A stretch of 54,728 bases of DNA, taken from an uncultured Candidatus Saccharibacteria bacterium. GTDB lineage: Bacteria > Patescibacteriota > Saccharimonadia > Saccharimonadales > Saccharimonadaceae. Position 1 is the stretch's first letter. Each line of letters begins with the position of its first letter. Positions 23,883 through 54,728 of the stretch are shown piece after piece. The DNA lies in the NCBI GenBank assembly GCA_946548715.1, contig CAMNPZ010000005.1, positions 1 through 54,728 on the forward strand, in the 5' to 3' direction. The notes beneath the pieces are model-generated. The model did not search any database. It was not told where the DNA came from and was given only the letters and a program-made list of their open reading frames with translations. A program made the position numbers and the translations under genes.

Positions 23883-25400
23883 CTACTGTTTTGTATACCG
23901 AATCGTGGATTCAGTTGCTTCCTTATGCTGCTCAAAATTCGTAGTGGTTAAGTCATTACAATTAATAACGAGTTTATGAGCGCCAGTAACTTTATACCAG
24001 TCTGGCGTAATCCAATACGGGACTGCTTCTACATAATTACCTGGAACAAGGTATTTCTGGTCGCTAGTATATTCCAAAAAGTCGTTTATTCTGTTCTTTG
24101 CGCCGGTCGCTAATGGATTTATACTTGCAGGAGTATAAGTATTCTCGGTTTTTGTTGTTCGGATAGTAAGAGTATATCTCTTGTGTGTGACCGGATTCTC
24201 TTCAGGTGTGCCATCTTGCCCTACCGCTATGTCGAAACCGATGTTACGATACATAAGATCGTCCGTGTTGTTCATATAATATGCAGCCATGAGCTTCAAA
24301 GTACTGGTATGGAATAGATAATGGAATCTAACATCCAAATAAACGTCTTCCGGTACTTCTTTAATAATATAGATTGTGCCATCCGTAGGCGTAAGATTCG
24401 ATGCGTCCATGGTGTAAGCCATGCCACCTGAAAGATCTGGAAGATAATAATTTGTGCCATCATATACATCGTGACTTTCGGCAAACTCCATAAACTCACT
24501 TCGGCTTCCTTTAAAAATATAATACCCACCATACAGTGTTTCTGGAGTCAGTTTATCATATGAGCCATATTCTGTGCCCATCATATTATAAGTGCCGCTC
24601 TCTGGCAAATCAGTCATGCGAACATAGACTGGGTTTTCATGGCCCGGCTCCGTTGAGAAAGGTCGTCCAGTATAGAAAACCCTGAACGAAGGTGGTTCTG
24701 GGGCGTCATAATTATACGGATGCACCATCGTATACTTAACCTGTCCAGTATAAGTATCGGCAGCTTGGGTGCTGGAAATATAAGTAGCATAGGTGGTTTC
24801 TATCTTGGCGCCTAGGGTGGTGTCCGTAGTAGCTGGGTCTGTGGTGGTTGAATGGTATTCGGCTACTTTGGTGTATACATCCGGAATTGCTTGCCAAGTA
24901 TTAAAGCTACCTACAACGTTCATGTTTTGCGGGTTGTAGACTATGGGGTCACCGGAAACGGGATTATCCACTTTGTTTATTTTCATGGACCAGTTGGAGC
25001 TTGTGTCGCCCGATTCGTAGGGCTTAGTATCAATTGTTTGGTTGGTGTTTTGGCCTACAAGCTTAGTATGGAGGTCTCCTTCGTATAAATCATTGGTGTA
25101 GCCTATAGCGTAAATAGAAAAGCCGTTGCTGTCATTACAGAAAACAGTGAGAGTAGTCTTGCCGATGCCGTTTTCATATTCATTGCCAGCGGCTCCAGAA
25201 TAAGTACCCGGACTCATGGAGGCGTTATGAGAATCGGTACCAACACCGCCCATAGTGCAGGCAACTGGAACAGTAAGACTAACTTCATCTATGACTTCCG
25301 TATCAGCCGAAACATGAGATGACATTAATACTTCGCCAGCAAACAGGACTATAGTAAGTAAGCTAAATATGCTTACAGCAATAATATGATTTGTTTTCAT
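23883..25400 (-). CDS. secreted surface protein sharing the N-terminal domain of the BspA-like proteins
   Basis: A 505-residue secreted protein. A signal peptide (about residues 1-32, ending SSHVSA) is followed by the conserved domain VDEVSLTVPVACTMGGVGTD, VFCNDSNGFSIYAIGYTND, ATYISSTQAADTYTGQVKY. The C-terminal half has no DUF285 repeats; it is Tyr- and Thr-rich and contains TLTIRTTK, and it ends without membrane helix or LPxTG. The two Cys residues in the conserved domain could pair. AAAGGAA precedes the ATG. It follows its paralogue on the same strand, separated by 119 nt. Confidence 0.75.
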   Translation of the reverse strand: MKTNHIIAVSIFSLLTIVLFAGEVLMSSHVSADTEVIDEVSLTVPVACTMGGVGTDSHNASMSPGTYSGAAGNEYENGIGKTTLTVFCNDSNGFSIYAIGYTNDLYEGDLHTKLVGQNTNQTIDTKPYESGDTSSNWSMKINKVDNPVSGDPIVYNPQNMNVVGSFNTWQAIPDVYTKVAEYHSTTTDPATTDTTLGAKIETTYATYISSTQAADTYTGQVKYTMVHPYNYDAPEPPSFRVFYTGRPFSTEPGHENPVYVRMTDLPESGTYNMMGTEYGSYDKLTPETLYGGYYIFKGSRSEFMEFAESHDVYDGTNYYLPDLSGGMAYTMDASNLTPTDGTIYIIKEVPEDVYLDVRFHYLFHTSTLKLMAAYYMNNTDDLMYRNIGFDIAVGQDGTPEENPVTHKRYTLTIRTTKTENTYTPASINPLATGAKNRINDFLEYTSDQKYLVPGNYVEAVPYWITPDWYKVTGAHKLVINCNDLTTTNFEQHKEATESTIRYTKQ

Positions 25401-25519: not shown

Positions 25520-27229
25520 TTACGGTGCCAATGTGAAGGCTTTGCCGCTGGATGGAGTGGCGTAGACAGATACAGTGTTGCCATACATTCGGCTGGTAGT
25601 GTTATCGATACCGTTACCATTAGTTTGCGGGATAATTACTGACCAAATAGACGCATTGGGACCAGCACCTGACAACATAGTACCCATATTAGGAACTACA
25701 CCGCTCATGTTGGTTACCCTGGAAGTGTCCCAATTAGAAAGATCTAATGAGAAGGTGGAAGCACTCATGCCAGCATCATAAAACATTGCATTCATATTAG
25801 TGACGCTAGAAGTATCCCAGTCGGAAAGGTCAAGTGAAAAAGTAGAGACGTTGAGGCCAGTACTGAGAAACATACCACTCATATTAGTGACGCTAGAAGT
25901 ATCCCAGTCGGAAAGGTCAAGTGAAAAAGTAGAGACGTTGCGGCCAGCGGCATAGAACATGGCGCCCATATTAGTCACACTGGAAGTGTTCCAGGAAGAA
26001 AGGTCACCGATAGACCAGTCGGTGGCACTAAAGCCGACCGAGCGAAACATGGATGCCATGTCAGTCACACTAGAAGTATCCCAAGAGGATAGGTCTAGCG
26101 AGAAGGTGGGGGCATCATAACCTGCGTCATAGAACATGCTATACATATTAACTACACCAGAAGTATCCCAGTCGGAAATCGCTGGCGCAGTAGAAAGAGA
26201 TCGCAAGCTGTAAAACATATATGACGAATCTGGATTGAGTACCGGAGTGGCATTGCCAGAATAAACATACATAATGCCAGCATCATTGGTATTATCAAAG
26301 AAAATATAGGCAGGCTTATCTGAAGTAGAAAGCGAGATAGTGTTGGCTTCGGTTGGTTCGAAATCGGCAGGGAGGGAGTCGGCGGTTTGAATGGATTTAA
26401 TAAGACTGTCACTATTATTGTAGGTTTTTGTTTCACCTGCGGCGAGAGACTTCATCTTGGCGTTGACGTTTTGGCCTGTATCAAGGAAGGCAGGAATGAT
26501 TGGAGCTGGGTGATTAGCTGGATGAACGAGTGTGTATATCACCTGTCCACTATACGTATCCGCAGGCTGAGTCTTGCTGATATAAGCTGCATAAGTAGTA
26601 GTAAGTTTAACTCCACCAGTAGTTTCAGTCATATCAGTGCCAGAGTTCTTATGAGCTACTTTAACGTATTCATTTGGGACTACATGATATTGTGAGAAAG
26701 GAGCCTGAGTAGCACCAGATTCTGCTTGGCTAGGAAGAGCTACATTGGGAGCAGAATCAATAGTGAAGGCATTGTCAGCTGAAGTATCTCCTGAGTCCTG
26801 AGTCATAGTAAGTTTCATGGCCCAGTTAGATACATCAGGGTTACCAGCAGTCGTAGCAATACCTGATTCTATAGTTGCATCACCAGAAGCAGTTGTTCCG
26901 ACTAGTTTATTACTATTTGTTCCTCCTACTTCATTCCCTGTATATCCTGCTGCATATATAGCGAATCCTTCATTATCATTACAGAATGCATGGAGTACTG
27001 TAGAACCTATATCATGGTCATATAGTCCATTATTAATATTGGCATTATGGGACTGCATGCCAGTACCGGACATAGTGCAGGAGATAGGCACTGTAATATT
27101 TATCTCATCTACGACGGAAGGGTCGTCGGCGGAGACATGGGAAGAAGCCAATACGCCACCAGCGAGCAGACTAATACTAGCTAGACTTAGCGGGATTAGG
27201 TTGATGTTGTTTAATTGTCGTTTGTGCAT
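25520..27229 (-). CDS. BspA-like (DUF285) secreted surface protein behind a homopolymer promoter
   Basis: A 569-residue protein read from ATG 27229 (AAAGG upstream; ATG 27244 is an in-frame alternative). A signal peptide ends near SSHVSADDP. The conserved domain VDEINITVPISCTMSGTG and CNDNEGFAIYAAGYTGNE follows. From about residue 330 there are repeated BspA/DUF285 units of the form LSDWDTSSVTNMSGMF, about seven copies. BspA repeats bind host proteins and other bacteria in oral species. No anchor is visible at the C-terminus. Transcription is probably controlled by the G19 tract upstream. Confidence 0.85.
   Translation of the reverse strand: MHKRQLNNINLIPLSLASISLLAGGVLASSHVSADDPSVVDEINITVPISCTMSGTGMQSHNANINNGLYDHDIGSTVLHAFCNDNEGFAIYAAGYTGNEVGGTNSNKLVGTTASGDATIESGIATTAGNPDVSNWAMKLTMTQDSGDTSADNAFTIDSAPNVALPSQAESGATQAPFSQYHVVPNEYVKVAHKNSGTDMTETTGGVKLTTTYAAYISKTQPADTYSGQVIYTLVHPANHPAPIIPAFLDTGQNVNAKMKSLAAGETKTYNNSDSLIKSIQTADSLPADFEPTEANTISLSTSDKPAYIFFDNTNDAGIMYVYSGNATPVLNPDSSYMFYSLRSLSTAPAISDWDTSGVVNMYSMFYDAGYDAPTFSLDLSSWDTSSVTDMASMFRSVGFSATDWSIGDLSSWNTSSVTNMGAMFYAAGRNVSTFSLDLSDWDTSSVTNMSGMFLSTGLNVSTFSLDLSDWDTSSVTNMNAMFYDAGMSASTFSLDLSNWDTSRVTNMSGVVPNMGTMLSGAGPNASIWSVIIPQTNGNGIDNTTSRMYGNTVSVYATPSSGKAFTLAP
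25720..26190 (-). repeat. tandem BspA/DUF285 repeats in coding sequence
   Basis: Units encoding DWDTSSVTNM are repeated, and two neighbouring units are nearly identical at the DNA level (about 25800-25940). This is a substrate for copy-number change by recombination. Confidence 0.75.
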
Positions 27230-27250
27230 GCAGTGGCCTTTCATTTATAC

Positions 27251-27316
27251 ATAATATATTATCATAAGTATTATCATAATAATACCCCCCCCCCCCCCCC
27301 CCCGCGAAGTTGTCAA
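27251..27316 (-). promoter_or_regulatory. promoter with G19 tract between -35 and -10 (candidate phase-variable switch)
   Basis: On the minus strand TTGACA (27316-27311), 7 nt, G19 (27303-27285), then TATTAT (27284-27279) and further -10-like GATAAT boxes at 27275 and 27263. The spacer to TATTAT is 26 bp here and would be 17 bp with about ten Gs. Confidence 0.7.
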
Positions 27317-27396
27317 GGAGAAATTTTGTTGTAATTTTTACAACAATGTATTGTACGGAAGCCCGAAAAGCATCTGATTGATTTTTGCAAGATTTA

Positions 27397-27412
27397 TGGT
27401 ACAATATGTTTA
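27397..27412 (+). promoter_or_regulatory. extended -10 promoter giving leaderless der mRNA
   Basis: TGG then TACAAT (27400-27405), 6 nt before ATG 27412. Confidence 0.65.
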
Positions 27413-28878
27413 TGAAAAAATTACCAATCGTTGCATTAATCGGCCAGACCAATGCTGGGAAATCCAGTCTATTAAATCGGATGGCGCGCAAAAATATCGC
27501 TATCGTGGCTCGCGAGGAGGGAACTACACGCGATAACGTGGTGGCGACGATTGATAATGCTTTTATTTTGGTTGACACGGCGGGACTAAAAGACCCGAGT
27601 GATGATTTCGAGGCGTCTATTCAAGAGCAGATTCAGGATGCGATTGAATCTGCTGACATGATTCTAGTGACGCTTGATTCGTCGAAATACTTCGACCATC
27701 GGGACCGCAAGATTGCCAAGGACGCTTTGCGCTCTGGTAAGCCTGTTTTCCTAGTCTTAAACAAGTGCGACCTCGGCGAGTCCTTACCGATCGAGGAATT
27801 CCGGGCGCTTGGTATTGCACCCGAAAATATCTACTATACTTCCGCTACGACCGGGCAAGGGATAGAGAAACTTAAAGGAATGGTATTGGACGGAATAGCT
27901 GGATTTTGCTCATCGAAGGGGGTCCGGAGGCTGGCAAGCCGAGGGGTAGCGCCGGCCGCCCGTGGCGACGGGCCGGCCGGACGCGCCCCGAGAGGAGCAA
28001 AATCAGCTATTCTGTCTGAATCCACTCCACTTAAACTTGCCCTAATCGGGCGGCCGAATGTAGGGAAGTCATCGCTGTTTAATACACTTGGTAAGAAACA
28101 ACAGGCGATTGTGTCGAGTCGTCAGGGAACTACGCGCGATGTGAATCGAGTACAAGTGAAGTATAAGGGCAGAGAGCTGGAAATACTAGACACAGCGGGT
28201 TTACGCAAGCCAGGCAAACGCGAGGTAGGGATTGAGAAATTTAGCGCCATCCGCACACTGGCGGCCATAGAAGAGTCGGACGTTTGTTGTTTGTTAGTGG
28301 ATTCCACCGAGCCGCACAGTAAGCTCGACCAGTCTCTCGCAGGACAGATTGTCGAGGCAGGCAAGGGAATCATTATGGTGGTAACAAAGGCAGATTTACT
28401 AGAAAACGCCGAACCGACTAACTACTTCGGCGAGGAAAATATCGGTAATCGTACGGCGGCAGATTTCCTAATTGACCAGCTGGAGAAAGATTATGATTTT
28501 CTTCCTTATGCTCCAGTAATACTGACCTCGTCGGAGACGGGTGAGAATGTAACACAACTGTTCGAACTAGCATTACAGGTAGATGAGGCACGTCACACTG
28601 AAGTTAAAACAGCCGAGCTTAATAAGATTTTAAACGAGGCCATCGTCTCTCACCCGCCAGCAGGACTCAAAAACACCCGACCGAAACCAAAATACATCGT
28701 ACAAACCGACACCTGCCCGCCGTGGTTCGTGGTGCACGGGCACGATTTGGGATTACTGCACTGGTCATGGAAACGATTCTTGGAGCGCAAAATTCGCGAA
28801 AAATACCCCTTCATTGGTACGCCAATTATGTTTTCTTACCGAAGCGATAACAGAGATAAAATTGACAAAAAAGCTTAA
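27412..28878 (+). CDS. der: ribosome-associated GTPase Der (EngA) with in-frame palindromic insertion
   Basis: A 488-residue tandem GTPase needed for 50S assembly. The first G domain has GQTNAGKSSL (Ala where Val is usual), DTAG and NKCD. The second has GRPNVGKSSLFN, DTAGLRKPGKR and TKAD. The C-terminal KH-like domain is present. Between the two G domains, about residues 168-196, lies an Ala/Gly/Arg/Pro-rich insertion encoded by a GC-rich palindrome (27913-27998). It is in frame and sits in the linker, so both G domains remain intact. I start at ATG 27412 because the -10 box ends 6 nt upstream; ATG 27406 is possible. Confidence 0.95.
   Translation: MKKLPIVALIGQTNAGKSSLLNRMARKNIAIVAREEGTTRDNVVATIDNAFILVDTAGLKDPSDDFEASIQEQIQDAIESADMILVTLDSSKYFDHRDRKIAKDALRSGKPVFLVLNKCDLGESLPIEEFRALGIAPENIYYTSATTGQGIEKLKGMVLDGIAGFCSSKGVRRLASRGVAPAARGDGPAGRAPRGAKSAILSESTPLKLALIGRPNVGKSSLFNTLGKKQQAIVSSRQGTTRDVNRVQVKYKGRELEILDTAGLRKPGKREVGIEKFSAIRTLAAIEESDVCCLLVDSTEPHSKLDQSLAGQIVEAGKGIIMVVTKADLLENAEPTNYFGEENIGNRTAADFLIDQLEKDYDFLPYAPVILTSSETGENVTQLFELALQVDEARHTEVKTAELNKILNEAIVSHPPAGLKNTRPKPKYIVQTDTCPPWFVVHGHDLGLLHWSWKRFLERKIREKYPFIGTPIMFSYRSDNRDKIDKKA
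27893..28012. mobile_element. palindromic element family A, copy in der
   Basis: The core 27913-27994 is GC-rich with stem CCGGCC-GCCCGT-GGCG-ACGGGC-C-GGCCGG (27952-27980). Outer arms GAATAGCTGGATTTTGCTC (27893-27911) and its near-perfect inverse (27995-28012, one base shorter) are specific to this locus. It reads through on the same strand as the ftsQ-like copy. Confidence 0.8.
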
Positions 28879-52932: not shown

Positions 52933-54728
52933 CTATTCTGACGGGATAAAGGTGCCTTCGCTATTCCAGGTACCGGCACGACGAGCGAAAGTGGGATGAG
53001 CCGGCGCTTTTCCGAACATACTATAGAAATTATTAGCGGCCGATGTAGAGCTACCAGCAGTAGCGGTAACGTTAGTAATATTCCAGTTATTGATTGCTGA
53101 GGCGTCGGTGAGCGAGACAGAATCAAAGAACATAGAGTTCATATCTGTTGCACTGGAAACATTCCAGTTTTCTAGACCAGCTAGGGTAGTAGTAGTTGAT
53201 TTATCAGTTTGGTTAAAGGCACCTTTGAAGCTTTCCACTTTACTAACATTCCAGTTTCCCAGAGGCAAGAATGAGGCTATATTATTATTCTGAAACATGA
53301 AACTCATATCTGTCACGCTGGAAACGTTCCAATTCTCTAGTGGGGACAAATCGATAATAGCATCATCAAATTTAGATTCACTTGGACCCATGGCGAACAT
53401 CCAGCTCATATTTGTTACTTTGCCTGTATCCCATGTTGACAGCCCTCGAAGAGAGGTTAAGTGACTTGTCTCATAGAACAACGCGGTCATAGAAGTCACA
53501 TTGCTCACATTCCAACCGCCTAGAGCAGAAATATCTGAAAGATTAGACGCCCCACAGAACATCTGGTACATGGTTTCAACGTTACCTGTATCCCAATTAG
53601 CTAAGGCCGAAATATCTGAAAGATTAGACGCCCCGAAGAACATATTCCGCATTGTGGTGACCTTGCTTGTATCCCAGGATTCTAAACCTCTAAGTGAAAC
53701 CAAGCCTGTTGCCCCTTGAAACATGTTTGCTGTCGTCGTCACATTACTTACGTCCCATCTTGCTAGGCCGGAGATGTCCGCATGCAAATAGTTTTCTGCA
53801 GGGCAAGTTGAATCGGATGCAAATAAAAGGGACATGTCCGTAACATTTGAGACATTCCAAGCCGAGATGGCATCTAAATTTGTGAACTTAGAAGCACTAC
53901 AAGCGAACATAGCTTTCATGTTTGTCACTTTTGAAGTATCCCAAAACTTGAGACCGGAGATGTCGGAGAGATTAGTAAGCCTAAGGAATGCAAAAGAAGA
54001 ATCCGGATTCATGGTTACTTGATAACCACCAGAATAGAAATACATAATCCCAGCATCGTCAGTGTTGTCGAAGACAATGTAAACTGGGTGGGCGGATTCC
54101 GGAGTAGTGACGGTGTTTTCAGCAGTAGCAACGAAACCATCGGGGAGTGAGTCTGCCATGCGAATAGCCTTGATTCTAGTATCCAAGGTTTGCGTCGAAG
54201 CGTCCGTGATTCCCCCAGAAAGGTTTTTCAGCTTATTCGATAGCTCTTTACCAGTAATAAGCATAGAATCGGTCTGTGGGATAGGGTGGGAGGCTGGGCG
54301 TACGAGAGTGTAAATAACTTGTCCTGAGTAGGTATCTGCCGGTTGAGTCTTAGAAATGTAAGCAGCATAAGTAGTAGTAAGCTTAACTCCACCAGTAGTT
54401 TCAGTCATGTCGGTCATGGAGTTCTTATGGGCTACTTTAACATATTCATTTGGGACTACATGGTAGTCTGAGAAAGGAGCTTGAGTTGCACCTGATTCTG
54501 CAGTACTCGGAAGAGCTACATTTGGAGCAGAGTCTATGGTGAAGGCATTGTCAGTTGAAGTATCTCCACTATCCTGAGTCATAGTAAGTTTCATAGCCCA
54601 GTTAGATATGTCATTACTGCCTACTGGTCCTGTTGCAATACCTGATTCTATAGTTGCATTACCAGAAGCTGTTGTTCCTACTAGTTTATTACTATTTGTT
54701 CCTCCTACTTCATTTCCTGTATATCCTG
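52933..54728 (-). CDS. BspA-like (DUF285) surface protein, 5' end outside the window
   Basis: At least 598 residues; the start and signal peptide lie beyond 54728. The N-terminal part present here (GNEVGGTNSNKLVGTT..., YAAYISKTQPADTYSGQVIY) is nearly identical to that of the 25520-27229 protein at DNA level. It is followed by about ten DUF285 units such as LANWDTGNVETMYQMF. These units differ strongly from those in the paralogue. It ends FIPSE with no anchor. Likely a second adhesin-like protein of the same family. Confidence 0.85.
   Translation of the reverse strand, partial: GYTGNEVGGTNSNKLVGTTASGNATIESGIATGPVGSNDISNWAMKLTMTQDSGDTSTDNAFTIDSAPNVALPSTAESGATQAPFSDYHVVPNEYVKVAHKNSMTDMTETTGGVKLTTTYAAYISKTQPADTYSGQVIYTLVRPASHPIPQTDSMLITGKELSNKLKNLSGGITDASTQTLDTRIKAIRMADSLPDGFVATAENTVTTPESAHPVYIVFDNTDDAGIMYFYSGGYQVTMNPDSSFAFLRLTNLSDISGLKFWDTSKVTNMKAMFACSASKFTNLDAISAWNVSNVTDMSLLFASDSTCPAENYLHADISGLARWDVSNVTTTANMFQGATGLVSLRGLESWDTSKVTTMRNMFFGASNLSDISALANWDTGNVETMYQMFCGASNLSDISALGGWNVSNVTSMTALFYETSHLTSLRGLSTWDTGKVTNMSWMFAMGPSESKFDDAIIDLSPLENWNVSSVTDMSFMFQNNNIASFLPLGNWNVSKVESFKGAFNQTDKSTTTTLAGLENWNVSSATDMNSMFFDSVSLTDASAINNWNITNVTATAGSSTSAANNFYSMFGKAPAHPTFARRAGTWNSEGTFIPSE

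Follow-up and report, generated by a model that had tools for sequence, protein, structure and literature searches.

The locus and its promoter

The window, the whole stretch of 54,728 nucleotides that was analysed, contains a gene for a BspA-like protein, of a leucine-rich-repeat-like kind, that is divergent from der (Table 1). The protein matches the DUF285 repeats (PF03382) in Pfam with an E-value of 5.1e-41, and its N-terminus is hydrophobic by a simple hydropathy measure; on these two grounds the label "BspA-like, secreted", given in an earlier note on this DNA, seems a fair one. Translation likely starts at the ATG at 27229-27227 rather than at the ATG at 27244, because the GAAAGG motif precedes the former with a spacing of 7 nt, whereas the latter has no such site.

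The earlier note had also described, on the minus strand, a TTGACA followed by 7 nt, G19 and TATTAT, making a spacer of 26 bp (7 + 19), and this layout proved exact when the sequence was read again. The homopolymer is found between recognisable -35 and -10 hexamers, as in a promoter of the porA type. It is the only run of at least nine Gs on either strand of the whole genome of 781,578 bases (~782 kb), in which runs of at least seven Gs number eight, and in 100 dinucleotide shuffles of the window a run of G12 is expected 0.00 times. Among the later boxes on the 3' side of TATTAT, one, TGATAATAT, is an extended -10-like element of the form TGnTAnnnT, and some transcription independent of G19 is therefore possible from this site. 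The divergent der gene has a promoter-like site of its own, TTGATT-16-TACAAT (27378-27405), which lies outside the tract, and a role of G19 as part of the der promoter was rejected for that reason.

Table 1. Features of the G19 promoter and its neighbouring genes (positions in the window).
Feature	Position	Strand	Basis
-35 hexamer TTGACA	27311..27316	-	sequence
Constant part of spacer, ACTTCGC (7 nt)	27304..27310	-	sequence
G19 homopolymer, proposed slippage tract	27285..27303	-	sequence
-10 hexamer TATTAT, directly abutting G19	27279..27284	-	sequence
TGATAATAT, possible second, extended -10 promoter, tract-independent	27256..27264	-	consensus match only
Shine-Dalgarno-like GAAAGG	27237..27242	-	sequence
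Putatively secreted DUF285/BspA-like protein, 569 aa, likely start ATG 27229	25520..27229	-	hydrophobic N-terminal signal, N-terminal half of paralogue family, DUF285 repeats
Next gene downstream, same family; upstream region without repeat	23883..25400	-	sequence
der/engA (EngA GTPase), divergent neighbour of the BspA-like gene	27412..28878	+	same neighbour beside orthologous promoter in G186

Recurrence in related genomes

Promoters of this kind recur in relatives. A search for TTGACA followed by 3-10 nt and then at least seven Gs picked out 15 of 60 congeneric genomes, and the backward control none; with a TANNNT box added to the pattern, 34 of the 174 congeners searched were positive, again with no backward matches. 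In the family, TTGACA-N2-10-G8+-TANNNT is present in 62 of 394 genomes as compared with two backward-control matches (the scan tolerated up to 21 nt before the tract, but nearly all sites use at most 10). Nearly all positive genomes in an order-wide scan belong to the family of the window, and a phylum-wide scan of Patescibacteria elsewhere gave scattered positives (12/286). At nearly all sites the -10 box abuts the G tract. A poly-C counterpart of the promoter was searched for in 170 congeners and gave only two matches, neither promoter-like; being practically absent there, it was rejected as a promoter element.

Strict restriction of the pattern to Saccharibacteria was likewise rejected, given the positives elsewhere in Patescibacteria and the occurrence of the strict pattern in many phyla among the matches listed. 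Among these matches, TTGACA-N-G10+-TAWWAT (L202-L318) is also seen in Bacilli, Clostridia, Spirochaetes and others, with Streptococcus suis, Treponema ruminis and Streptobacillus notomytis as named carriers.

Spacing between the hexamers

The spacing was studied in 109 G-tract sites, excluding duplicates and most cases of a non-abutting -10 box; these sites came from the TTGACA/TANNNT query, which partly builds in their likeness to promoters, a bias that the backward and poly-C controls share. Their spacers range from 11 to 26 bp with a mode at 18-19 bp (58 sites), and about 77% fall at 15-19 bp, a looser distribution than that of ordinary promoters. Exactly 17 bp is found at only 8 sites and is not the commonest value; poly-G DNA has a twist that may differ, which could, as a speculation, account for the mode at 18-19. 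The 26-bp spacer of the window is the longest among the G-tract sites, homopolymer length in an assembly being uncertain, above all at G19. Tracts run from G8 to G19, with compensating flank length: the constant part of the spacer anti-correlates with tract length (rho -0.24, p 0.012), and their sum has a smaller variance than under permutation (p 0.001, or 0.011 after duplicates were removed by flank). Ordinary TTGACA..TATAAT promoters without G runs at the same loci have a sharp peak at 17 bp (13/19), which lends support to the idea that transcription would depend on tract length. Total spacing thus matters, being kept close to the sigma-70 optimum from locus to locus, yet the G-tract promoters are caught at many lengths, a spread that would be expected if some were on and others off.

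These data bear on an alternative in which the tract is hypermutable but transcription starts mainly from the extended -10 element TGATAATAT downstream, so that tract length would have little effect on output. Besides the presence of that element in the window (27264-27256), many family members elsewhere have extended -10 promoters of the TATGCTATAAT type with no good -35, and similar elements lie 3' of the repeat in L106, L146 and L073. However, L159 and L344 have no such element, with the start within tens of bases of the -10 box of the tract, and the alternative leaves unexplained why TTGACA and an abutting -10 persist, at a constrained total spacing, in unrelated genes and species. We regard it as unlikely.

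Tract length in copies and orthologues

Tract length differs between close copies with conserved flanks, both among duplicates and among orthologues in relatives. Two tandem copies in genome G030, with flanks 97% and 87% identical, have G11 and G10; near-identical promoter copies in G107 have G17 and G16; and copies in G445 with identical downstream sequence have G12 and G13. The G107 and G445 pairs lie at contig ends, and the idea that each is one locus assembled twice was rejected because the flanks show different copies. In G018 one copy reads TTGACT-17-TATACT with G9, while in a near-identical copy the run is broken to GGAGGTGGG and the 17 bp are retained. Across orthologous promoters that belong to one family of secreted proteins, the tract is G9 in G019, G11 in G158 and G134, and G12 in G112. 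The locus syntenic with that of the G19 promoter, in G186, has der (72% identical) beside a BspA-family gene that is 58% identical, with G8 and a 17-bp spacer, and in G086 a gene whose start is very similar has G10, also with a 17-bp spacer.

Sequencing or assembly could in principle have created G19, for example through the poly-G of two-colour Illumina chemistry, or misjudged its length badly, as the genome is a metagenomic draft assembly of 26 contigs and homopolymers are error-prone. The tract nevertheless has intact flanks within its contig, tracts orthologous to it occupy the same place in other assemblies (in one case beside der), and in dozens of independent genomes it is strand-specific and located in promoters, which makes an artefact extremely improbable.

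Repeats in the paralogue family of the same genome

The BspA-like protein has about two dozen matches in its own genome. When 17 of the upstream regions were read, most had ordinary promoters, several of them so close to the ATG that the mRNA would be leaderless. In the family, leaderless mRNA is expected at L109, L112, L115, L120 and L344, where the ATG lies ~6-10 nt 3' of the -10 box. Since repeats are absent from most of the upstream regions read, where the promoter is an ordinary or an extended -10 one, the view that all paralogues in the genome are switchable was rejected. A truncated close paralogue at 53545-54728 of the window, on the minus strand, runs off the contig end. Contig ends also hold several other family members, as repeated sequence would lead one to expect.

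The closest paralogue (L106, contig C9) has a TA repeat between TTGATA and TACAAT, at ~705-723 of the locus, with a spacer of 17 bp. It is the only run of (TA)8 or more in the genome, and this spacer is a candidate for a second switch, of the hif type. Another paralogue (L121, contig C11) has a 19-nt (CT) run in its 5' leader, the only run of (CT)6 or more in the genome; its near-identical copy (L114, contig C18) has a shorter one. The (CT) run sits in a possible short upstream ORF, which keeps its frame in both copies. For G, TA and CT alike, the longest repeat of its kind in the genome thus immediately precedes a member of one gene family. The upstream regions of this family make up, by our own estimate, around half a percent of the genome, and we take this to be the strongest sign that repeat instability is under positive selection here.

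The paralogues also help to judge whether the tract is a fixed structural or binding element, either a G-quadruplex of the non-template strand or a regulator site, rather than a variable spacer. Long G runs can form quadruplexes, and the sense strand always carries G and never C, as such an element would have it. But tract lengths range from 8 to 19 with compensating flanks, recent duplicates differ by one G, and in the spacer of the nearest paralogue the same part is played by a (TA) repeat, which is unable to form a quadruplex. A fixed element is accordingly very unlikely.

Genes behind G-tract promoters

Genes downstream of G-tract promoters are enriched in those for putatively secreted proteins. 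Counting genes of at least 100 amino acids, 48 of 91 have a strongly hydrophobic N-terminal segment, a higher share than among neighbouring ORFs (33 of 154; odds ratio 4.1, p 7e-7). Their Pfam matches include DUF285, collagen repeats, Listeria-Bacteroides repeats, Fib_succ_major, TIG, LRR, SpaA and pilin-type domains, and several other downstream proteins resemble type IV pilins at their N-termini. Outside the genus, many of the downstream genes look cytosolic.

In other genera of the family, genes whose N-termini are like those of type IV pilins lie behind G-tract promoters at L145, L160, L163, L164 and L193. A family of proteins starting with M(T/P)RLP(T/H/Q)PG..G.WG.ILNDYLS is found repeatedly behind such promoters, several per genome (L104, L128, L130, L140, L161, L162 and L166), some with collagen-like repeats.

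Cultivated Saccharibacteria are epibionts on Actinomycetales hosts, and type IV pili contribute to their binding of the host (PMC12206443). The earlier note had called the BspA-like protein a sensible antigen to vary; a surface protein it does appear to be, but with an epibiontic life "antigen" is less apt than a protein facing a bacterial host or the mucosa.

Proposed mechanism and known systems

Slipped-strand phase variation acting through promoter spacing is the best explanation of the G19 element, and most likely the right one. The proposal in the earlier note, a spacer made variable by slippage in front of the BspA-like gene, gains support as a reading from the recurrence of the element, its strand specificity and the abutting -10 box, and further from the unequal tracts at near-identical and orthologous promoters, the 17 bp at the syntenic orthologue and the (TA) repeat in the spacer of the nearest paralogue. 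The element would be a sigma-70-type promoter with a hypermutable G tract in its spacer. Slipped-strand mispairing at replication would add or remove Gs, and this would alter both the distance from TTGACA to the -10 box and the helical phase of the two. Transcription of the surface protein would be high near 17-19 bp (about G10-G12 in the window) and low at longer or shorter spacers. The sequenced state of G19, with 26 bp, would then be low or off, save for possible basal transcription from the extended -10 element. The G19 switch would be one of many in the family, most of which would control secreted or surface proteins. Whereas the anatomy, the recurrence, the spacing distribution and the unequal tracts at near-identical promoters are observed, we infer that tracts slip in populations, that this changes transcription and brings a benefit, and that on and off states exist.

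Homopolymers near surface-protein promoters are also found in tpr of Treponema pallidum and opc of Neisseria. Unlike the poly-G of the window, the tract of opc is poly-C, and in the tpr promoters the position differs in detail. In porA of Neisseria meningitidis a poly-G lies between -35 and -10, and the level of PorA transcript tracks the number of Gs (PMC3899988). The window likewise has a poly-G in the promoter spacer of a surface-protein gene, but in another phylum and another gene, with a near-perfect TTGACA and a longer tract in the sequenced state. In hifA/hifB of Haemophilus influenzae, a dinucleotide (TA) repeat alters the -35/-10 spacing of genes for surface appendages (PMC3899988). 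The (TA) spacer repeat of the paralogue L106 is similar, although the hif promoter is bidirectional whereas that of L106 drives one gene. The promoter-spacing mechanism itself is thus already known from porA and hif (PMC3899988). In the open-access literature no relevant report of phase variation in Saccharibacteria or Patescibacteria was found, and as far as that literature shows, it is new that the mechanism is widely used in Saccharibacteria and that one paralogue family combines several repeat types.

More tentatively, and with somewhat less than even confidence, the paralogues with different unstable repeats (the G19 spacer, the (TA) spacer and the (CT) leader), members of a family of modular surface proteins in ultra-small episymbionts, may form a stochastic switchboard, each cell showing a random subset of surface proteins. 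If so, the population could spread its bets across host bacteria, phages or mucosal conditions. Attachment to a bacterial host is something that Saccharibacteria cannot do without, and host choice and change are little understood. In animal pathogens, phase variation of surface proteins is a classic phenomenon; if it is widespread in episymbionts with minimal genomes, reversible random switching would also shape symbiosis of bacterium on bacterium, and transcriptomes or host-binding tests on one clone would sample only one setting of the switches. The loci listed here make switching directly testable from existing long-read metagenomes.

Other G runs and shared promoter cores

The idea that promoters account for most G runs of the genus was rejected: among 40 other runs of at least nine Gs that were sampled, about four resemble promoters and the majority fall within long open frames. 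Other G10-G13 runs of congeners (L398, L400-L402, L412-L413, L416, L419 and L421) are inside ORFs; several are just 3' of the start codon and recur in paralogues of the same genome, which suggests phase variation of the frameshift type as well. The promoter core TTGACATCCCCGCCA-G10-TATACT is common to two genera (G432, contig C16, L162; and G522, contig C14, L191), possibly spread by transfer. By sequence, the congeners G114 and G077 match the MAGs "Candidatus Saccharibacteria bacterium" RGIG4362, from roe deer jejunum, and RGIG5782, from sheep ileum, respectively.
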